DNA of 52,151 bases from Actinomyces oris (lineage in GTDB: Bacteria > Actinomycetota > Actinomycetes > Actinomycetales > Actinomycetaceae), in contig NZ_VICC01000006.1 in NCBI RefSeq assembly GCF_006546825.1, forward strand, positions 733,078 to 785,228. The letters are read 5' to 3'. The position numbers and the translations under genes are program-made. Positions 42,766-52,151 of the stretch are shown here, one piece after another. Under the pieces are notes generated by a model that searched no databases, was not told the DNA's origin, and saw only the letters and a program-made list of their open reading frames with translations. The first letter of the stretch is position 1, and each line of letters starts with the position of its first letter.

Positions 42766-43515
42766 TCATTCCTTCCACAGGGCACCGGGCAGCGCGCTGG
42801 CGAACCACGAGGTGATGGTCGTCGGGTGGGTGATGGCGGTTCCGACGACGACGGCGAAGGCGCCGTGCTCCATGGCGGCGGCCGCCTGCGCGGGCGTGTG
42901 GACCCTGCCCTCCACCACCAGCGGGACCTCCGCGATGCCGGCGACCTGGTCGACGAGCTCGAGGTCGGGCCCGTCGGTCTTGGGACGCTCCCCGGTGTAG
43001 CCGGCCAGGGTGGTCCCCAGGATGTCCACCCCCGCGTCCTGTGCGGCCTTGGCGTCATCCAGGGAGCCGCAGTCGGCCATGATGAGGACCTCGGGGCGGG
43101 CCGCTCGCAGCCCCTCGACGGTCTGGGCCAGGCTCAGCCCGTCGGGGCGGGGGCGCCGGGTGCCGTCCAGTGCCACGATCTGGCTTCCGGTGGCGGCCAC
43201 GGCGATGGCGTGGGTGAGGGTCGGGGTGATGAAGACGCCGTCGTGGCCGTCCTTCCACAGGCCAATGACGGGGACGTCGACGTGCTGGCAGATGAGGGCC
43301 AGGTCCGCCAGCCCCTGTGCGCGGATGCCGACGGCGCCGCCGGCGACGCAGGCCTGGGCCACCTGGTCCATGGTGCGGGGGTCGCGCATGGGCTCTCCCG
43401 GGTAGGCCTGGGCGGAGGCGATGAGTCCTCCCTTGAGGCGTTCCAGAACGGGGTGCATCCCCGCGGAGGCGGCCTGCGTCTGCGTTGACGGCTGTGAGGG
43501 TGACTGCTCGGTCAT
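42766..43515 (-). CDS. nanE: N-acetylmannosamine-6-phosphate 2-epimerase
   Basis: Converts ManNAc-6-P to GlcNAc-6-P in sialic-acid catabolism. A 249-residue TIM barrel: ERLKGGLIASAQAYPGEPMRD, GIRAQGLADL, VIGLWKDG with the catalytic lysine, IMADCGSLDDAKAAQDAGVD and VVEGRVHTPAQAA with the catalytic glutamate. An 18-residue Ser/Gln/Thr leader precedes the barrel. It follows nanK by 36 nt and is the last gene of nanA-nanK-nanE. ATG 43515 has AGGAC about 9 nt upstream. Confidence 0.95.
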   Translation of the reverse strand: MTEQSPSQPSTQTQAASAGMHPVLERLKGGLIASAQAYPGEPMRDPRTMDQVAQACVAGGAVGIRAQGLADLALICQHVDVPVIGLWKDGHDGVFITPTLTHAIAVAATGSQIVALDGTRRPRPDGLSLAQTVEGLRAARPEVLIMADCGSLDDAKAAQDAGVDILGTTLAGYTGERPKTDGPDLELVDQVAGIAEVPLVVEGRVHTPAQAAAAMEHGAFAVVVGTAITHPTTITSWFASALPGALWKE

Positions 43516-43551: not shown

Positions 43552-44592
43552 CTAGGGGCGGTGGTTGTCGTTGCTGGCGGCCAGGGCGAGGGCGCCGCGT
43601 GCCGCACCGACGATCGGCGCGGTGGTCCCCAGGGTGGCGGGAAGAATCTTGATGGGGGCCAGGGGGTCGATGATCTCTGCGGCGAAGGTCTGCCGCAGGG
43701 GCTCCCACCACAGGTCACCGGCGCGGGCCAGGCCGCCGGAGACGACGACGACGTCGGGGTCGATCACGGTGACCAGTCCTGCCAGTGCCCTGCCCAAGCA
43801 GGTGGCCGAGTCGCGGTAGACCTCCGCGGCAATGTCATCCCCGGCAGCGGCGCGCTCCTCGACCCCGCGGGCGTCGGGGACGTCGGGGTCTCCCCCCTTG
43901 GCCAGGTAGCGGCGGTGGATCTGGGGTCCGGCGGTGATGCCCTCCAGGTGCCCCGTCCTGCCGCAGGTGCAGAGCTCGCCCTGGGCCCCGGGGACGGGGA
44001 CGTGGCCGATCTCGCCGGCCACGTGGTGGGCGCCTCTGCGGGTTCGCCCATCGAGGACGAGGGCTCCGCCGACCCCGGTGCCCACCGCCACCATGAGGAC
44101 GACCTCGGCCCCGGTGCCGGCACCGAGCCAGGCCTCTCCGGCGGCATAGGCGTCGACGTCGTTCTCGACGTGGATCGGCAGCTCACCCAGCCCCTGGGCG
44201 GCGAGCCGCTCGCGAACGCCAGCGGCGACCTGCGTGCCGGCCCATCCGGTGATGGCGTCAGTGGCTGACAGGATGGTCCCTCGCTCGACGTCGACGACGC
44301 CGGCCGTGCCGATCCCGACCGCCGTGATCGCCGCGGCTTTGCCGGGCTCCTGGTGCGTTCCGGTCTCGACGACCGTCGAGATCAGGCCGCTGATGGCATC
44401 GAGCATGGCGGCAGGCCCCTCGTGAGCCGGGGTCGGGCAGGAGCTCACCGGTCCTTGCAGGGTTCCGCCGGAGTCGACCAGCGCGGCAGCCATCTTGGTG
44501 CCCCCCAGGTCGAGTCCGACGACGAGCGGGGCCTGACCGGACGACGATGATGATGGGGCAAGGGGGGTGGATGGGAGGACATCCTGACTCAT
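43552..44592 (-). CDS. nanK: ROK-family N-acetylmannosamine kinase
   Basis: Phosphorylates ManNAc to ManNAc-6-P. 346 residues: DLGGTK (28-33) at the ATP site, ENDVDAYAAGEAWLGAG with the catalytic Asp, and the zinc region LCTCGRTGHLEG. The last cysteine of the usual CxCGxxGCxE zinc motif is replaced here by His. ATG 44592 with GGAGAG about 6 nt upstream; an in-frame start at 44739 lies inside the hairpin region and is unlikely. The kinase assignment rests on its position between nanA and nanE, since ROK proteins also include glucokinases. Confidence 0.88.
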   Translation of the reverse strand: MSQDVLPSTPLAPSSSSSGQAPLVVGLDLGGTKMAAALVDSGGTLQGPVSSCPTPAHEGPAAMLDAISGLISTVVETGTHQEPGKAAAITAVGIGTAGVVDVERGTILSATDAITGWAGTQVAAGVRERLAAQGLGELPIHVENDVDAYAAGEAWLGAGTGAEVVLMVAVGTGVGGALVLDGRTRRGAHHVAGEIGHVPVPGAQGELCTCGRTGHLEGITAGPQIHRRYLAKGGDPDVPDARGVEERAAAGDDIAAEVYRDSATCLGRALAGLVTVIDPDVVVVSGGLARAGDLWWEPLRQTFAAEIIDPLAPIKILPATLGTTAPIVGAARGALALAASNDNHRP

Positions 44593-44752: not shown

Positions 44753-44761
44753 GCCGGGACG

Positions 44762-45682
44762 TCAGATGAGGCCCTGAGCCTTGACGATCTCCAGGACCCG
44801 CTCCTTGGTCTCCCCCTCGAGAGCCTTGACAGGGAAGGCCATCTCGTTGGTGGCGATGATCCCGATCGCCTCCATGGCGGTCTTGAAGGCGCCGATGCCG
44901 GTCGCGTCAGCCGAGCGCCCCTGGGGCACGAAGACGATCTCGAAGCCGGCGCAGACCTCGTCCTGAAGGCGGCGCACCTCGTCCCACGACCCCTCGCGGG
45001 AGGCCTTCCACATCTCGGCGTAACGGACCGGGTCCACGTTGCCGTATCCGGGGACGAGGCCGTCGGCGCCCAGCAGCAGCATGCCGTCGACGACGCACTC
45101 GTGGCCGGTCAGAAGGGCCAGGGGGTGGCCCGCGGCCTCGTTGGCGGCCACCAGCCTGCGGAAGGCGACGTCGTTGCCGGAGGAGTCCTTGACACCGGCC
45201 AGGACGCCCTCCTTGCCCAGCTCGACGAGCAGCTCGCAACCGAGCTTGGCGCCACCGAGGCGCACAGGGACGTCGTAGGCGAAGACGGGCACGTCAATGG
45301 CCGCGGCGATGGCGCGGAAGTGAGCCTTGATCTCCTCGGCGTCGTTGAGCGCGTAGAACGGGCAGGTGGCCACGATCGCCTCGGCACCGAGGGCGGCCGC
45401 CCGACGAGCCTGGTCGATGACCCGGTGGGCGGTGGTGTCGATGGCACCGGCAAGCACCGGGACGCGTCCTGCCGCGGTCTTGACGACTCGCTCGATGACG
45501 GCGTCGCGCTGGGCGTCGGTGAGGTAGGCGACCTCTCCGGATGATCCCAGGGCGAACAGGCCGTTGACACCACCGGCGATGAGGTGCTCGACGACCTTGT
45601 CCAGGCTGTCGAAGTCAACCTCGCCCGCGGCGGTGAAAGGGGTGACGACCGGCGGGATGACGCCGGTGAAACGGTTGTCCAT
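44762..45682 (-). CDS. nanA: N-acetylneuraminate lyase
   Basis: Splits sialic acid to ManNAc and pyruvate. A 306-residue TIM barrel of the dihydrodipicolinate-synthase family. FALGSSGE (43-50) is the carboxylate-binding loop, AYDVP carries Tyr136, and GVKDSSG carries the Schiff-base lysine Lys165. ATG 45682 (GAAGAGAG 8 nt upstream) is preferred over the in-frame ATG 45700, which has no ribosome site. The family also contains other aldolases; the nanK and nanE neighbours make the sialic-acid role secure. First gene of its operon. Confidence 0.93.
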   Translation of the reverse strand: MDNRFTGVIPPVVTPFTAAGEVDFDSLDKVVEHLIAGGVNGLFALGSSGEVAYLTDAQRDAVIERVVKTAAGRVPVLAGAIDTTAHRVIDQARRAAALGAEAIVATCPFYALNDAEEIKAHFRAIAAAIDVPVFAYDVPVRLGGAKLGCELLVELGKEGVLAGVKDSSGNDVAFRRLVAANEAAGHPLALLTGHECVVDGMLLLGADGLVPGYGNVDPVRYAEMWKASREGSWDEVRRLQDEVCAGFEIVFVPQGRSADATGIGAFKTAMEAIGIIATNEMAFPVKALEGETKERVLEIVKAQGLI

Positions 45683-45706: not shown

Positions 45707-45735
45707 GTTATCGGACGTCTGACATCTGACGTCAC
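45707..45735 (-). promoter_or_regulatory. nanA promoter with TCTGACGTC operator in the spacer
   Basis: On the minus strand GTGACG (45730-45735), a 17-nt spacer and GATAAC (45707-45712) form a -35/-10 pair. The spacer and the edge of the -35 are filled by GACGTCTGACATCTGACGTC (45714-45733), a repeated TCTGAC(A/G)TC element also found at 49909 and 51671. Confidence 0.7.
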
Positions 45736-45805
45736 GAGGTATTGTTGCAGATGCTCCCGGTTGACGCCACCCCGGTGCCCGGGTCTCCTAGCGACCGTAT
45801 GTACC

Positions 45806-45841
45806 GGTGAGGGGCGGACCCGAGTGGGTCCGCCCCTCACC
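45806..45841 (-). terminator. terminator after the sialic-acid transporter operon
   Basis: GGTGAGGGGCGGACCC and GGGTCCGCCCCTCACC form a perfect 16-bp stem with a GAGT loop, 39 nt past the stop at 45880. It separates the transporter operon from the nanA promoter. Confidence 0.85.
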
Positions 45842-45879
45842 TGGAGGTGCTGGCGCCGGCAGCGGCCGGAGCCGGCTAC

Positions 45880-46707
45880 TCAGACATCGAGCAGCGAGGG
45901 CACTGCCGACAGCAGAGTGCGCGTGTACTCCTCCTGAGGATTGTTGAAGATCTCCTCAGTGGTGTTGAGCTCGAGGATCTTGCCGAAGTACATGACGGCG
46001 ATCCGGTCCGAGACGTAGCGCACCGTGTTGATGTCGTGACTGATGAACACCAGCCCCAGTCCCAAGGATGCCTTGAGGTCCTGGAGGAGGTTGAGCACCT
46101 GGGCGCGCACCGAGACGTCCAGGGCGGAGGTGGGCTCGTCGGCCACGATGATGTCGGGGTCCAGGGCGAGCGCTCGGGCGATGGCGACGCGCTGGCGCTG
46201 ACCACCGGAGATCTGCCGAGGCAGCACGTTGAGTGCGCTGGGGGGCAGCCCGACCAGGTGGAGCAGGTCGCGCACCTTGGCCTCACGCTCCTTGGGCGAC
46301 CCGATTCCGTGGACGTTGAGCGGGTCGATGAGCGCGTCGTGCACGATCATGCGCGGGTTGAGGGCCGTGGCCGGGTCCTGGAAGACCACCGAGATGCTGC
46401 GTCCCAGATCGCGACGGTCCGAGGCCGAGCGCCCCAAGGGACGCCCCTTGAAGATGACCTCACCGGAGGTGACCGGCTGCAGACCCACCATGACTCGGGC
46501 CGTGGTGGACTTGCCGCAACCCGACTCCCCCACGAGTCCCAGCGTCTCTCCGCGCTTGACGCTCAGCGAGACGTCGTTGACCGCGTGAACCGTGTCCGGG
46601 TGGAACAGGCCACCGGTGCGGGACTTGTGGATGACATTGACATTCCTGAGCTCGACGACCGGCTGGTCCTTGCTCCATGAGGACGATGCAGACGTGTTGG
46701 GGGACAT
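45880..46707 (-). CDS. dipeptide/oligopeptide-type ABC transporter ATP-binding protein (OppF/DppF-like)
   Basis: 275 residues: Walker A GESGCGKST (60-68), signature ISGGQRQRVAIARAL, Walker B IIVADEPTSALD, and switch His in FISHDINTV. The second ATPase of the transporter whose permease and binding protein lie upstream. The ATG overlaps the stop of the fused gene by 1 nt (TGATG). With nanA, nanK and nanE next door, the cargo is most likely sialic acid rather than peptides. Confidence 0.9.
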   Translation of the reverse strand: MSPNTSASSSWSKDQPVVELRNVNVIHKSRTGGLFHPDTVHAVNDVSLSVKRGETLGLVGESGCGKSTTARVMVGLQPVTSGEVIFKGRPLGRSASDRRDLGRSISVVFQDPATALNPRMIVHDALIDPLNVHGIGSPKEREAKVRDLLHLVGLPPSALNVLPRQISGGQRQRVAIARALALDPDIIVADEPTSALDVSVRAQVLNLLQDLKASLGLGLVFISHDINTVRYVSDRIAVMYFGKILELNTTEEIFNNPQEEYTRTLLSAVPSLLDV

Positions 46708-48857
46708 CAGTGCTTCTCCTTCGCGAGCAGAGCCTCGAGCTCGGGGGTGATGGCGTAGCTGTGCTCCGTCGTGCCCGGCACGGGCTTGAGCACCGGACGG
46801 GTCTCAAGTCCAACCGTCGGGTGGGACGATCGCGGAGCGAACCGGTCGCCCTTGACGAACTCGCTGGGTGAGGGGACGACCCCTCGCACCTGGTGGAGTC
46901 GCTTGGAGCCGGACTCGATGGAGAGCACCGCGCCGAGGAGGCCCCGGGTGTACTCGTGAACCGGGTTGGCCAGCAGCTCGCTGGTGGGCGCCTGCTCAAC
47001 CACCTGGCCCGCGTACATCACGGTGATCCGGTGTGCCAGCTTGGCCACGAGGGCCAGGTCGTGCGAGACGAAGACCATCGCGAAGCCGAGCTTCTCACGC
47101 AGCTCGTTGAGCAGGTCGATGACCTGCTTCTGAACGGTCACGTCCAGCGCGGTCGTCGGCTCGTCGGCCAGGACCAGGGAGGGGTCTCGGGTCAGCGCCA
47201 TGGCGATGAGGACGCGCTGACGCTGGCCGCCGGAGAGCTCGTGCGGGTAGCTGCGCAGCGTGCGCTTGGGGTCGAGTCCCACCAGCTCGAGCAGCTCCTC
47301 GGCACTGCGAGTGCCTCCGCGCGCACTGAGCTGGGCCATCTGGGTGCGGATGAGCATGGAGGGGTTCAGTGAGGACAGAGCATCCTGGTAGACCATGCTC
47401 ATCTCGTGACCACGCAGCGCGTTGTGCTCGGCCGGCGTCATCTCAAGGATGTTGCGTCCCTTGAAGAGGATCTCACCGGAGATACGGGCCGAGGGAGGCA
47501 GCAGCCCCATGACGGCCATCGAGCTGATGGACTTACCGCAGCCGGACTCCCCCACCAGGCCCATGGTCTCGCCCGGACGCACGGAGAAGGAGACGCCATC
47601 GACGATGTTGACCTCACCATGCTGCTCGGGGAAGGCGATCGTGAGGTTCTTGACCTCCAGAACCGGGTCCTCGCCGGTGTCCTCGTAAACCAGGCGGTCT
47701 CGCCGGGCGAGCTCGGCCACCCGCAGGGAGCTGAGCCGCTCAGACAGAGGAACATCCTCGGTTGCCGGGGCGGCGACGCCGGTCAGTGAGCTGAACCCAT
47801 TCGTGGCGTCGTCCCCGTCGGCGACGGAGGCGTTGGCGACCACCGCCTCAGCGGCGTCGTCCCAGGCGTTCAGGGTCTCCTGAGCCTCCATGGCCTCCTC
47901 ATCGGCCTGAACATCGGGCTTGGCCTTGATGCGCGGCGAGGCCATCGCATCGGTCAGTCCCTCGGACAGGACGTTGAGGCACAGGGTGGTGATGAGGATG
48001 AGCAGGCCGGGGAAGAAGGTCGGCCACCAGTGGCCCGACAGGAGCAGCTCCTTGCCCTCGGAGAGCATGTTGCCCCAGGTCGGGGTGTTGACGGACTTGA
48101 TGCCCGCACCGATGAAGGACAGCGAGGCCTCGAAGACGATCGCGTCGGCCACCAGGACGGTTGCGAAGACCATGATCGGGGCGATGCAGTTGCGGGCCAC
48201 GTGCTTGAGCAGGATCCACGGCACCGGCGCCCCCATCACCTTGGAGGCGGCCACATAGTCCTCCCCGAACTGGGAGATGATGTTGGCACGCACCACGCGG
48301 GTGAGCTGGGGGATGTAGAGGATGCCGATGGAGACGATGATGACCGGCAGCATCGGCAGGCGGGTCGACATCGCCGAGACGAGGACGGCCGCCAGAGCGA
48401 TGCCGGGGAAGGACATGACGACGTCGAGCACGCGCATGAGGGTCTCAGCGATCCACTTGCGCGACGTGGCGGCGACGGCCCCGAGGACCGAGGCTACCAC
48501 CAGGGCCAGGCCCGTGGCCGTCAGGCCCACGACCAGCGAGACCCTGGCGCCGTAGACGGCGCGGGAGAAGATGTCACGACCGGTGCCGTCCGTCCCGAAC
48601 AGGTGGGACGCGGAGGGGGCGACGACCGGATCGGAGGAGGTCACCTCACCGACGCCCTCGATGTAGGAGGTCGTCTTGGTCTCCGCCAGCCCGGTAGCAC
48701 CGGGAGAGTAGGGGGCGATGACGGGAGCCAGGATGGCGATCAGGGCGATGAGGCCCAGCACGATGATGGCGATCTTGGAGCCGACAGGCAGCGCCTTCCA
48801 GCCCTGGAAGCGCAGCCCGGGCCGCGAGGCCTTATCCAGTGTGGAGCGGTGCAGCAT
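46707..48857 (-). CDS. fused ABC permease plus ATP-binding protein (DppC-DppD type)
   Basis: A 716-residue fusion. Residues about 1-310 are a DppC-like permease with six helices and the EAA loop EDYVAASKVMGAPVPWILLK. Residues about 311-395 are an acidic Ala/Glu/Asp-rich linker. Residues about 396-716 are a DppD-like ATPase with Walker A GESGCGKS (436-443), LSGGQRQRVLIAMAL and VLADEPTTALDV. From memory, sialic-acid transporters of the Sat type in other bacteria include such a fusion; this needs checking. The ATG overlaps the previous stop by 1 nt (TGATG), with AGGAG just upstream. Confidence 0.92.
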   Translation of the reverse strand: MLHRSTLDKASRPGLRFQGWKALPVGSKIAIIVLGLIALIAILAPVIAPYSPGATGLAETKTTSYIEGVGEVTSSDPVVAPSASHLFGTDGTGRDIFSRAVYGARVSLVVGLTATGLALVVASVLGAVAATSRKWIAETLMRVLDVVMSFPGIALAAVLVSAMSTRLPMLPVIIVSIGILYIPQLTRVVRANIISQFGEDYVAASKVMGAPVPWILLKHVARNCIAPIMVFATVLVADAIVFEASLSFIGAGIKSVNTPTWGNMLSEGKELLLSGHWWPTFFPGLLILITTLCLNVLSEGLTDAMASPRIKAKPDVQADEEAMEAQETLNAWDDAAEAVVANASVADGDDATNGFSSLTGVAAPATEDVPLSERLSSLRVAELARRDRLVYEDTGEDPVLEVKNLTIAFPEQHGEVNIVDGVSFSVRPGETMGLVGESGCGKSISSMAVMGLLPPSARISGEILFKGRNILEMTPAEHNALRGHEMSMVYQDALSSLNPSMLIRTQMAQLSARGGTRSAEELLELVGLDPKRTLRSYPHELSGGQRQRVLIAMALTRDPSLVLADEPTTALDVTVQKQVIDLLNELREKLGFAMVFVSHDLALVAKLAHRITVMYAGQVVEQAPTSELLANPVHEYTRGLLGAVLSIESGSKRLHQVRGVVPSPSEFVKGDRFAPRSSHPTVGLETRPVLKPVPGTTEHSYAITPELEALLAKEKH

Positions 48858-49822
48858 CAGATGCTCCTAATTCGTGGGTTGACGAGGACGTAGAGCATGT
48901 CAACGACGATGTTGATGATGATGAAGGCCAGTGCCACCGTGATGGAGACGCCCTGGACGATGTTCACGTCGTTACGGGTGATGCCCTGGAAGATGAGCTG
49001 TCCCATCCCCTTGATGTTGAAGATCATCTCGATGACGACGGCGCCTCCCATGGCGTAGCCGATGCGCAGGCCCAGCACAGTCAGCGGCGTGATGAGCGCG
49101 TTGCGCAGCACGTTGCGGGCCACGACGACGTTCTTGGGAACACCGCCGCCGATAGCGGTGCGCACGTAGTCGCGGTCGAGCTCCTCAACCATGGCAGTAC
49201 GCACCACGCGGGTGAGCGAACCGGTGTTGGGAACCGCGATGGCCAGTGCCGGCAGGAAGATCTGGTTGAGGTACGTTCCGGGATCCTCGCTGAAGGGAAC
49301 CCACTCGGATACCAGCGCGGGGAAGGCCCCCGTTCCGCCCGGAATGTCGGAGAACCACTGGATGAGCAGCAGGGCGAGCCAGAAGGACGGGGTGGCCAGG
49401 CACGCGATGGAGATGACGCGGATGACCTGGTCCTGCCACTTGTCGCGGTAGAGGGCTGCGATGATTCCCAGGATCGTAGCCAGGATGACGGCCACGAAGA
49501 TTCCAATGAAGGTCAGCTGGAGCGTGATCGGGAAGGCCGCGGCCACCATGTCGGAGATCTTGGCTCCAGTGAAGGAGGTGCCGAGATCACCATGGATGAG
49601 GCCCAGGAGGTACTCCCAGAACCGCTTGAGAAGAGGGTCGTTGAGATGATGGGCGGCTCGGTACTGCTCGAGGGCGTCTGGCGTGGCCGACTCACCCAGC
49701 GCAAGACGCGCCGGGTCTGCCGAGGAGAACGACATGACGATGAAGACGAGCAGCGTCACGCCCAGCACCATGACCGGCAGCGCGACCAAGCGCCGTCCGA
49801 TCAGGCGGATGAGGTTGGACAC
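48857..49822 (-). CDS. ABC transporter permease (DppB-like)
   Basis: 321 residues from GTG 49822, chosen because AAAGGAG lies 7 nt upstream. Six helices and the EAA loop RDYVRTAIGGGVPKNVVVAR fit DppB permeases; the partner of the permease half of the fused gene. An in-frame ATG at 49876 would add 18 residues without a ribosome site. First gene of the three-gene transporter operon. Confidence 0.92.
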   Translation of the reverse strand: MSNLIRLIGRRLVALPVMVLGVTLLVFIVMSFSSADPARLALGESATPDALEQYRAAHHLNDPLLKRFWEYLLGLIHGDLGTSFTGAKISDMVAAAFPITLQLTFIGIFVAVILATILGIIAALYRDKWQDQVIRVISIACLATPSFWLALLLIQWFSDIPGGTGAFPALVSEWVPFSEDPGTYLNQIFLPALAIAVPNTGSLTRVVRTAMVEELDRDYVRTAIGGGVPKNVVVARNVLRNALITPLTVLGLRIGYAMGGAVVIEMIFNIKGMGQLIFQGITRNDVNIVQGVSITVALAFIIINIVVDMLYVLVNPRIRSI

Positions 49823-49906
49823 TGAAATGCTCCTTTGCGTTAGCGTCCTGCCGCCTTTGGAGGGCGGCTGGGTCACGTGGCAGCCGCAGAGCCAGCCGCC
49901 ATTCCG

Positions 49907-49935
49907 ATTGTCTGACGTCTGACGTCAGATTGCAA
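49907..49935 (-). promoter_or_regulatory. transporter-operon promoter with operator in the spacer
   Basis: On the minus strand TTGCAA (49930-49935), a 17-nt spacer and GACAAT (49907-49912) form the promoter. The spacer is TCTGACGTCAGACGTCA, containing the perfect 12-bp palindrome TCTGACGTCAGA (49918-49929). A bound repressor would block RNA polymerase. Confidence 0.75.
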
Positions 49936-49980
49936 GTCCGTTGCTTTCGCCTCGGACACACTGACACCCCGAGCACGACA

Positions 49981-50020
49981 CGGGCGGTGCAGCAACCTCC
50001 AGCGACTGCCACACCGCCCG
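49981..50020 (-). terminator. hairpin after the binding-protein gene
   Basis: CGGGCGGTG (49981-49989) and CACCGCCCG (50012-50020) form a 9-bp stem with a 22-nt loop, 10 nt past the stop. It would let the binding protein be made in excess over the membrane parts. Confidence 0.55.
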
Positions 50021-50030
50021 CACGCGAGTC

Positions 50031-51656
50031 TCAGGACTTGGTCGAACCCGTCCCCACGAAGGACAGGCCGGTCAGCGCGATCGGCTTGAAGTTCTCCAAC
50101 GTCGTCGAGTCGTAGGCCGTCGGAGCCTTGCGGTGGAAGATCGGGTAGAGCGGAACGTCCTCAGAGAGCTTGTCGAAGATCTCCTGCCACTTGGAGACCT
50201 GCTTGTCACCCTCCAGCTTGACCGCCTCATCGAGCAGCTTCTGGACCGCGACCTGGCTCTCCGAGCCCTTCCAGTGCATCCGACTCTCGGTCCACACGTC
50301 ACCGCTGTACCACCAGCGCATGAGCAGGTCCGCGTCATTGCCGAAGACCGAGGGGTCCCCAGGAGCGATGAGCACGTCCCACGCCCCCTGCCCGGAGTCG
50401 ATGAAGGAGTAGGTGTCCGCAGACTTCTTCTCGTCGTACTTGACCGTCACGCCCAGGGCCTCGAGGTTCTCACGGATGATGGGCCTGACGGCGGAGAACC
50501 AGCCGTGGTCCGTGCACAGCAGGTTGATGGTCGTGATGCCGGCCTCCGACAGGAGCGACTTGGCCTTGGCCGCGTCCTTGGAGTAGACCGTTTTGGCCTT
50601 CTTGTACGCGGGGTGCCCGTCCTGAACGAAGCAGGTAGCCGGCGTCGCCAGACCGGCCATGCCGGTGTCGCAGATCTTGGCGTAGTCCAGCGCGTAGAGC
50701 ACCGCCTGGCGCGCCTTGACATTGGAGAAGGTGGTGTTGTTGAACATGGCGAAGAGCAGTCCGAAGCCCTGCTGCGCCGCCACCTTGACCGGGTCCTTGA
50801 GCGTCTTGAGGTTGGCCGCCGGGACGGCGTCGATGGCCTGCACGGAGCCAGAGGTCATCGCGTTGGTGCGAGTGGTGTCGTCAGGCAGGACCTGCCAGGT
50901 CATGGACTTGGCCAGCGCCGGGCGAGGACCGTTGTACTTGTCGTTGCGTTCGAAGACGAGCTTCTGGCTGGCGGCACCGTTGTCGGTCATCTTGTACGGA
51001 CCGCTTCCGACGGGGTTCATGTCGAACTTCTTGGCGTCCGCCTCGACAACCGCCTTGGGGACGATCTTGACGACGCTCAGACGCTCGGCCACCAGGGAGA
51101 AGGCGTACTTGAGCTTGATGGTCACCGTGCCTGCGTCCTTGGCCTCCACCTTGTCGATGAAGGGAAGGAACTGCGAGTACAGCGACTTGTTGGCCGGGTC
51201 GAGGACGCGCGTGAAGGAGAAGACGACGTCGTCGGCAGTCACGGCCGAGCCGTCGGAGAACTTCGCGTCCTTACGCAGCGCGACCTCATAGGTGGTGTCG
51301 TCCACCTTCTTGGGCATCTCCGCCGCCAGAGCCGCGTACACCTCGCGGGTGGCCGGGTGAAGCTCGGTGAGCCCCTCCAGGGTGTGCCAGTTGGCAGCGA
51401 CCGTCAGAGCCGACGACGTCGTCATCGGGTCGTAGCCGTTGGTGCCCAGCTCGTAGGAAATACCTGCGGTGATGACACCGTCCTTGTGAGTGACTTCCTG
51501 ATCGGTAGCCATACCACTGGCCTTTGCGCCACCTGCGGTCTTGCCCTTACCGCCGCAGGCCGCAAGGCTGGCAGCCAGACCAGCAGCCATTCCGAGGGTG
51601 CCGGTCAGCCTGATGAAGTCCCGGCGGCTGGAGCCGGCCGGAGTCGTGATCGCCAT
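50031..51656 (-). CDS. ABC transporter substrate-binding lipoprotein, probably for sialic acid
   Basis: 541 residues of the dipeptide-binding (DppA/OppA) family. A twin-arginine-like RRDFIR (11-16) precedes a hydrophobic core and lipobox SLAAC with Cys34, so export may use Tat before lipidation. The mature protein shows LTVAANWHTLEGLTELHP, LRKDAKFSDGSAVTADDVVFS and VGSGPYKMT, the family's standard segments. ATG 51656 has AGGAGAG about 8 nt upstream. Its own transcript ends in a hairpin at 49981; permease and ATPase genes follow as a separate operon with a related operator. Ligand inferred from the nan genes. Confidence 0.9.
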   Translation of the reverse strand: MAITTPAGSSRRDFIRLTGTLGMAAGLAASLAACGGKGKTAGGAKASGMATDQEVTHKDGVITAGISYELGTNGYDPMTTSSALTVAANWHTLEGLTELHPATREVYAALAAEMPKKVDDTTYEVALRKDAKFSDGSAVTADDVVFSFTRVLDPANKSLYSQFLPFIDKVEAKDAGTVTIKLKYAFSLVAERLSVVKIVPKAVVEADAKKFDMNPVGSGPYKMTDNGAASQKLVFERNDKYNGPRPALAKSMTWQVLPDDTTRTNAMTSGSVQAIDAVPAANLKTLKDPVKVAAQQGFGLLFAMFNNTTFSNVKARQAVLYALDYAKICDTGMAGLATPATCFVQDGHPAYKKAKTVYSKDAAKAKSLLSEAGITTINLLCTDHGWFSAVRPIIRENLEALGVTVKYDEKKSADTYSFIDSGQGAWDVLIAPGDPSVFGNDADLLMRWWYSGDVWTESRMHWKGSESQVAVQKLLDEAVKLEGDKQVSKWQEIFDKLSEDVPLYPIFHRKAPTAYDSTTLENFKPIALTGLSFVGTGSTKS

Positions 51657-51670
51657 TGATTCTCTCCTGA

Positions 51671-51694
51671 TGTCTGACGTCTTATGTCTGACGT
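51671..51694 (-). promoter_or_regulatory. operator between promoter and start of the binding-protein gene
   Basis: TGTCTGACGT occurs twice in direct orientation (51671-51680 and 51685-51694), one step over a helical turn apart, just upstream of the ribosome site. A -10-like TACAGT lies at 51705-51710 on the minus strand, so the operator would fall near the transcription start. Confidence 0.65.
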
Positions 51695-51735
51695 TGGTAG
51701 GATGACTGTAGCAGAGGTCAGGGCGTCCAGACCAC

Positions 51736-51876
51736 TCACGACCTCGCAGACAAGGCGTTCGCGGACTGCCGCCCCACCGCTGGGGCGAGTCGTTCGACGA
51801 GCGGAATCACATCGTAGTGACCAACAATGATTGACAGGGCAAGAACCGTGGCCGACACCAAGAAGAGCAGCATCAT
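51736..51876 (-). CDS. possible 46-residue single-helix membrane protein
   Basis: ATG 51876 is preceded by GGAGG with an 8-nt spacer. The product begins MMLLFLVSATVLALSIIVG, one transmembrane helix, then a short tail HYDVIPLVERLAPAVGRQ and a Ser/Ala end. Third codon positions are mostly G or C, as in the neighbours. It lies on the same strand as the binding-protein gene, 79 nt upstream, and is divergent from the GntR-type regulator. It could be a small subunit or modulator of the sialic-acid transporter; a chance frame in the regulator's upstream region is the alternative. Confidence 0.42.
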   Translation of the reverse strand: MMLLFLVSATVLALSIIVGHYDVIPLVERLAPAVGRQSANALSARS

Positions 51877-51922
51877 GAACAGAGCCTCCGCACCGCAAGC
51901 ACCCACCACTGCAGGAAAAGAG

Positions 51923-52151
51923 ATGAACCTCACGCCCACAGTCGATGAGCCGATCATCCCTCATGGCCCCTACTCCACGCTGATGGCGTCGCCCACTACC
52001 CAGGCGGAAGCCACGATGGCGGAGATCAAGAACTACATCCTGCGCTCCGGTCTGCAGATGGGTGACGCGTTGCCCACGGAGTCCCAGCTGTGCACCGACC
52101 TAGGAGTATCCCGCTCCTCCGTCCGAGAGGCCGTCCGCACCCTCGTCGCCC
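51923..52151 (+). CDS. GntR/FadR-family regulator, 3' end beyond window
   Basis: Only the first 76 codons are present. ATG 51923 has AGGA 6 nt upstream. After a 30-residue leader, residues about 34-76 form a GntR winged-helix start: EIKNYILRSGLQMGDALPTE, SQLCTDLGVSRSSVREAVRTL. It is the only regulator in the nan island and is the likely owner of the TCTGACGTC operators at 45714, 49909 and 51671, analogous to NanR. The effector domain lies outside the window. Confidence 0.85.
   Translation, partial: MNLTPTVDEPIIPHGPYSTLMASPTTQAEATMAEIKNYILRSGLQMGDALPTESQLCTDLGVSRSSVREAVRTLVA

Follow-up and report, generated by a model that had tools for sequence, protein, structure and literature searches.

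In an Actinomyces genome of 3.17 Mb, sialic-acid genes lie at the end of contig C6 (785 kb), and they raise the question of whether the GntR-type gene at their edge controls them together, through which DNA element and in which direction. The window, that is, the whole stretch analysed here, comprises the last 52,151 nucleotides of this contig.

The gene cluster

All cluster genes except the regulator are on the minus strand. They encode the N-acetylmannosamine-6-phosphate epimerase NanE (42766..43515; PF04131 and NF002231 above cut-off), a ROK-family kinase (43552..44592; PF00480), a DHDPS-family lyase (44762..45682; PF00701), an OppF/DppF-like ABC transporter ATPase (45880..46707; PF00005), a fused permease-ATPase resembling OppC and OppD (46707..48857; PF00528 and PF00005 in one 716-residue frame), an OppB-like permease that is the first gene of the transporter operon (48857..49822; PF00528 and PF19300) and a family 5 solute-binding protein (50031..51656; PF00496). 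The kinase and lyase genes are called nanK and nanA by context, because both proteins score below the cut-offs of the curated models. The closest named match found for the binding-protein gene was from Actinomyces oris S64C (98% identity), and the fused OppC/OppD-like frame has full-length matches in relatives. The nanA and transporter genes are adjacent in the window and in locus L170, whereas nanA and oppF are about 6.3 kb apart, with other DNA in between, in six other loci (L171, L172, L174, L178, L179, and L184). On the plus strand, divergent from the binding-protein gene, starts the predicted nanR (51827..52151), of which the window holds the first 108 codons before the contig end cuts it. 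The fragment matched PF00392 with 43.9 bits (cut-off 27), in agreement with the preliminary description, which had placed a divergent GntR/FadR-type gene at the edge.

The proposed operator unit and its position in the predicted promoters

The preliminary description had noted near-identical elements upstream of three transcription units (nanA, the transporter operon and the binding-protein gene) and had taken the 9-mer TCTGACGTC as the operator unit. Arrays were located at all three places, but the unit had been drawn wrongly. The repeat is a 7-bp dyad, GTC-N-GAC, at an exact 7-bp pitch and mostly in three copies, and TCTGACGTC is the junction between two such units. The nanA promoter carries the units ATCGGAC, GTCTGAC, and ATCTGAC on the plus strand (45710..45730; no mismatch to the 21-bp sequence RTCNGACRTCNGACRTCNGAC), and the transporter promoter carries GTCTGAC, GTCTGAC, and GTCAGAT on the same strand (49910..49930). 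The array of the binding-protein gene, GTCTGAC, GTCTTAT, and GTCTGAC (51672..51692), sits in the intergenic gap shared with the divergent regulator. It had been described as two direct copies past the -10; it does lie past the -10, but it consists of three units, of which the middle one is weaker.

Distances between dyads were then counted over a range of 4-30 bp in upstream regions from Actinomyces relatives. The sole spacing of perfect dyads was 14 bp before the binding-protein gene (29 pairs in 34 upstreams) and 7 bp before the transporter (5 pairs in 34), and shuffled upstream regions gave no perfect pair at all. With one mismatch allowed per dyad, 7 and 14 bp were still the main distances and a few others emerged. 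On the aligned upstream regions and these counts, TCTGACGTC was rejected as the operator unit in favour of GTC-N-GAC. An exact TCTGACGTC also stands by itself, outside any array, at the nanA 3' end (44758-44766, minus strand).

At nanA, a predicted -10 (GATAAC, 45707..45712, minus strand) and a predicted -35 (GTGACG, 45730..45735, minus strand; TTGACG in L172 and L176) are 17 nt apart, the same distance as between the predicted -10 (GACAAT, 49907..49912, minus strand) and -35 (TTGCAA, 49930..49935, minus strand) of the transporter operon. Read on the coding strand, the 21-bp array fills this 17-nt spacer at both promoters, as had been stated earlier, and overlaps both hexamers. This geometry was kept in all 22 distinct array-bearing transporter upstreams, where TTG opens the predicted -35, GACAAT closes the array and 17 nt lie between. 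The binding-protein gene has a predicted extended -10, TGC TACAGT (51705..51713, minus strand), which is a conserved block in relatives; the TGC before TACAGT is extended -10-like, and the array starts 12 nt past TACAGT. Among 32 distinct Actinomyces upstreams of this gene, a block close to TGcTAcaGTCAtcCTACCAAC stood before the array and a TCAGGAGA-like sequence after it. Two placements of the array recur, one between the -35 and the -10 and the other past the -10, and both would suit a repressor, the promoter and operator roles being predictions from the sequence.

A second dyad-like stretch, for example GGTCAGACGTCC or GATCAGATGTCTGAT, was seen upstream of the binding-protein -10, in the gap between this gene and the regulator, in eight loci (L027, L028, L152, L153, L159, L160, L163, and L165). 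It could serve the regulator's own promoter.

Specificity of the arrays in the genome

A genome-wide motif search had been proposed as a check of the shared element. With up to two mismatches, the 17-mer GTCTGACGTCTGACGTC occurred in the whole genome at the three window sites only, and the 21-bp RTCNGACRTCNGACRTCNGAC occurred at four places in 3.17 Mb, namely the three window sites and C7:204449-204469. All four places adjoin sialic-acid genes (nanA, transporter, binding protein, and nanH). At three mismatches, six more scattered places appeared, and the reversed control of RTCNGACRTCNGACRTCNGAC gave 4 + 3 matches in the genome. The C7 array, on a contig other than that of the window, lies 66 bp (array centre to ATG) upstream of the gene for a 910-residue BNR-domain protein, nanH, whose best solved-structure match is the sialidase 1eur (E 3.5e-124). 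As the search that yielded nanH was blind to gene function, nanH provides independent support.

A weaker two-unit match at C8:88805 is immediately upstream of a NagA-like gene, whose product scored 186 bits with TIGR00221, below the cut-off of 225.65. Taken in the source genome alone this site is marginal, scoring 10/12 and equalled by 5 of 200 shuffles. The 12-bp two-unit core, which was defined post hoc from these sites, preceded nagA in 26 of the 30 genomes examined, out of 49 having the gene, compared to a Markov mean of 0.07 and to none of 30 downstream stretches. The core was absent from the 300 bp upstream of nagB in the source genome, and none of 25 nagB upstreams from this and related genomes reached the three-dyad threshold of 14/18. 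These results led us to reject nagB as a target, in line with the earlier remark that no copy was seen there. Of the preliminary description, the idea of a sialic-acid regulon marked by a common operator beside a GntR/FadR-type gene is well supported. Its operator unit does not stand, and its count of three promoters is too low, since nanH and, in the weaker two-unit form, nagA also bear the element.

Could the elements have arisen by chance or drift and have no common function? Two counts would fit this. With up to one mismatch, TCTGACGTC alone was no commoner in the window than expected (16 matches, 19.5 expected), and the looser 14-mer GTCNGACRTCNGAC, also with up to one mismatch, had 41 matches in the genome compared to 16 for its control, many of them at unrelated places. 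Against it stand the restriction of the 21-bp array to four sialic-acid genes, the failure of a single shuffle per upstream ever to reach the threshold, and the conservation of the array across genera. The special signal is the tandem arrangement and not TCTGACGTC by itself. On the upstream scans with shuffles, the aligned upstreams and the genome-wide 21-bp search, a chance origin of the arrays was rejected, and we give it next to no credence.

Conservation in relatives

A search in relatives had likewise been suggested, and it revealed that the arrays are conserved at these genes in other Actinomyces. With up to two mismatches, the 17-mer was found in 39 of 49 genus genomes (86 matches, with gene context checked for some matches only), compared to 11 of 49 (12 matches) for the reversed 17-mer. 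The regulator had a match in 42 of the 49. G001, G021, and G040 had the motif and a near-identical binding-protein gene without a regulator match, and in G001 a regulator fragment was visible at a contig end; we take these three cases as putative assembly breaks. Neither a regulator match nor a 17-mer match was found in G009, G012, G031, and G038. Six regulator-bearing genomes lacked a 17-mer match at this stringency (G005, G010, G015, G041, G042, and G046), and for at least the first of them (locus L168) a longer scan still yielded an array before the binding protein.

We also scanned 300 bp upstream of the genes in several genera for a three-dyad score of at least 14/18. The thresholds of the upstream scans were chosen after the first sites were known, and loci whose match started beyond the first 25 residues, which had fewer than 150 bases upstream or whose upstreams were identical were omitted. 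The threshold was reached by 51 of 67 binding-protein upstreams, 22 of 82 transporter upstreams and 12 of 59 nanA upstreams, and by none of those of nanE (0/56) and nanK (0/40); one shuffle per upstream gave none at threshold for every gene scanned. The array is conserved in 10 distinct Actinomyces upstreams of nanA. The 16 misses at the binding-protein gene included eight Corynebacterium loci and two from Actinomyces (L025 and L026, both with a score of 13). Misses at the transporter and nanA included genomes in which the gene lies close behind the binding-protein gene or, respectively, the transporter genes, and there a single promoter may drive the whole set. For nanH, 21 of 25 Actinomyces upstreams scored at least 13/18 compared to 0/25 for one shuffle each, the chosen start codon being doubtful for L195 and L207. 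Arrays also preceded nanH-like genes in Cellulomonas, Promicromonospora, and Cellulosimicrobium (L058, L060, L061, and L063), and in other Actinomycetota genera an array lies in the gap between regulator and binding-protein gene. Locus L078, whose contig bears the label of a Chloroflexi metagenome bin, encodes the start of a binding protein like that of Actinomyces (99% over 121 residues), and this contig is probably mis-binned.

The regulator and its predicted mode of action

Three full-length relatives of the regulator carry an FCD domain (PF07729) in addition to the GntR winged helix-turn-helix (HTH); the window copy ends before the FCD. The structure model of the L020 protein was confident (mean pLDDT 78.4) save for residues 1-56, with a pLDDT below 50, predicting a disordered arm of about 56 residues ahead of the HTH. 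By profile, the nearest solved proteins were 7c7e, 6az6, and 2di3, followed by Escherichia coli NanR. The fold comparison gave general GntR/FCD matches, among which E. coli NanR ranked third by E-value, and could not tell NanR apart from related regulators. Residues D161, H205, H250, and H272 were invariant across 26 relatives and may bind a metal in the manner of the E. coli NanR zinc site. The GTC-N-GAC dyad fits the operator consensus of the FadR subfamily, NyGTM-N0-1-KACNy, as worded in the excerpted text of PMC4494728.

The regulator is tied to the arrays by co-location and a family-level motif fit only, and the six genus genomes with regulator and without 17-mer would be expected if another protein, encoded elsewhere, read the arrays and the adjacent GntR gene controlled something else. 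We consider this unlikely: in Actinomyces as well as other genera, the regulator and the binding-protein gene are transcribed away from each other with an array in the gap, the dyad matches the consensus of the regulator's own subfamily, and the ROK protein of the cluster has, by profile search, only a kinase-type ROK domain without an HTH match.

If the regulator does bind the arrays, it might instead activate with its ligand, as SpNanR of Streptococcus pneumoniae does. Repressor and activator are inseparable by sequence alone, and some sialic-acid regulators are activators (PMC12713135); SpNanR itself is of the RpiR type. The arrays, however, lie over the spacer or past the -10, where a bound protein normally blocks RNA polymerase, and NanR proteins as described from actinobacteria and E. 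coli are repressors. We regard activation as improbable.

Because the divergent GntR gene is conserved beside the arrays, they are best read as sites of repression that a sialic-acid intermediate would lift, and we consider it likely that the GntR regulator is a ligand-relieved repressor acting on the dyad arrays of the nanA, transporter, binding-protein, nanH, and nagA-like genes. One regulator dimer would read each GTC-N-GAC dyad, and dimers would occupy adjoining dyads cooperatively. At the transporter and nanA, the bound dimers would cover the -35/-10 spacer, and at the binding-protein gene the region after the -10, in each case blocking RNA polymerase. When a sialic-acid intermediate accumulates, presumably one such as ManNAc-6-phosphate, the regulator would release the arrays, making the release, uptake and breakdown of sialic acid a single switch with nagB outside it.

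Twin regulators in some relatives

Tandem regulator pairs with a convergent Abhydrolase_3 gene between the twins were found in five genomes (G020, G022, G035, G039, and G045). The bodies of copies 1 and 2 share 99.7%, 85.4%, 100%, 99.2%, and 94.2% DNA identity in these genomes, respectively, and bodies across genomes are mostly 84-91% identical, with some pairs up to 95.4%. The two N-terminal arms within one genome are only 36-51% identical; between genomes, second-copy arms average 92% identity and first-copy arms 65%. This pattern suggests gene conversion limited to the regulator bodies, with G022 as a counter-example. The second-copy body of G022 is 98-99% identical to both G039 copies (at L171, 98.7% to the first copy of G039 vs. 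85.4% to its own sister), a likeness that hints at exchange between species. A literature search on gene conversion in GntR paralogs found no paper.

In none of the five genomes did the scan find a full array upstream of the second copy (best scores 10-12/18), although one relative has a two-unit match near that copy (L174, position 4340). L020 has a single regulator with a first-copy arm and no esterase, and this regulator runs into DNA that elsewhere follows the second copy, an arrangement such as recombinational loss would leave. The Abhydrolase_3 esterase-like gene adjoins the regulator, convergently, in all 19 genus genomes with a match (for example at 13656-14762 of L170); that it acts in sialic-acid de-acetylation is no more than a guess.

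The last 138 nt of contig C6 (52014-52151) belong to a repeat that matches the body duplicated in G020, and contig C9 opens with the last 12 nt of the regulator gene. Neither the esterase nor a second regulator copy was found in the source genome, which has an assembly gap between C6 and C9. The duplicated body stretch may explain the breaks inside the regulator gene, here and in several other assemblies.

We offer the following tentatively, as one reading whose three parts together we consider less likely than not. The A. oris group may possess twin repressors with bodies homogenised by gene conversion and with different arms; the arms may set how many dimers cooperate in loading on an array of 7-bp dyads; and if the 0.65-kb repeats recombine, the esterase could be deleted, leaving a single-arm repressor.

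Comparison with known systems

NanR of Corynebacterium glutamicum is reportedly released by ManNAc-6-P and GlcNAc-6-P, and its motif is said to contain TGATGTC repeats. According to the available portions of PMC4974736 and PMC8861201, it is a GntR-family repressor with nagB reported as repressed, and its GntR-type gene stands, as here, among sialic-acid uptake and breakdown genes. It differs from the present system, in which the array stands before nanH and nagA and is missing from nagB. Corynebacterium relatives among the compared loci, which did not include C. glutamicum, share the transporter type and a divergent GntR gene that is 38-50% identical to that of Actinomyces. They differ in that eight of 11 binding-protein upstreams fell below the threshold, with three reaching a score of 14 (L042, L045, and L052), whereas the Actinomyces dyads are near the GTC-N-GAC ideal. 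Judged by layout, the Actinomyces regulator is probably the counterpart of Corynebacterium NanR.

For E. coli NanR, the accessible text of PMC8012715 describes three dimers that load cooperatively on three close repeats via an N-terminal extension, and binding that is weakened by Neu5Ac. Shared with it, as far as that text goes, are the GntR/FCD architecture, three closely spaced tandem repeats and the conserved histidines of the effector domain, and the predicted disordered arm ahead of the HTH may be comparable to its N-terminal extension. The repeats there are GGTATA and not GTC-N-GAC dyads; GGTATA was absent from the aligned arrays, and the curated NanR model NF003011 gave 69.2 bits, far below its cut-off of 260. 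On these two results, membership in the E. coli type of NanR was rejected. Bifidobacterium breve NanR is likewise a GntR-type repressor, and its regulon as reported in part of PMC4746261 includes a nanH. Operators of the FadR subfamily are also similar; in the excerpt of PMC4494728 they are palindromes of the form GT-3 nt-AC and often have an additional, weaker box at a distance of 7-12 nt; the neighbours here differ from that account in being whole dyads at a fixed 7-bp pitch and not weak half-sites.

Judged by titles and abstract openings, a literature search for Actinomyces with NanR or sialidase regulation found no paper describing this regulon, and the paper on Actinomyces nanH, PMC2667307, has in its main text no word starting with 'regulat' or 'promoter'. 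New here are two predicted targets in Actinomyces, the sialidase gene and nagA, together with the arrays of 7-bp dyads and the tandem-duplicated regulator of five relatives, with bodies alike in most and N-terminal arms different. The regulon appears real and larger than first described, its operator grammar is unusual, and so is the twin regulator in some relatives.

The 7-bp dyad array bridges two operator types that are usually separate, the palindromes of the FadR type and the direct repeats of the NanR type, and the twin regulators of some relatives are a natural experiment on the part of the N-terminal arm in cooperative DNA binding. For the organism, the result is a concrete predicted regulon in which the sialidase gene nanH would share the switch of the other genes, and by which oral Actinomyces may link the freeing of sialic acid from the host with its import and catabolism.
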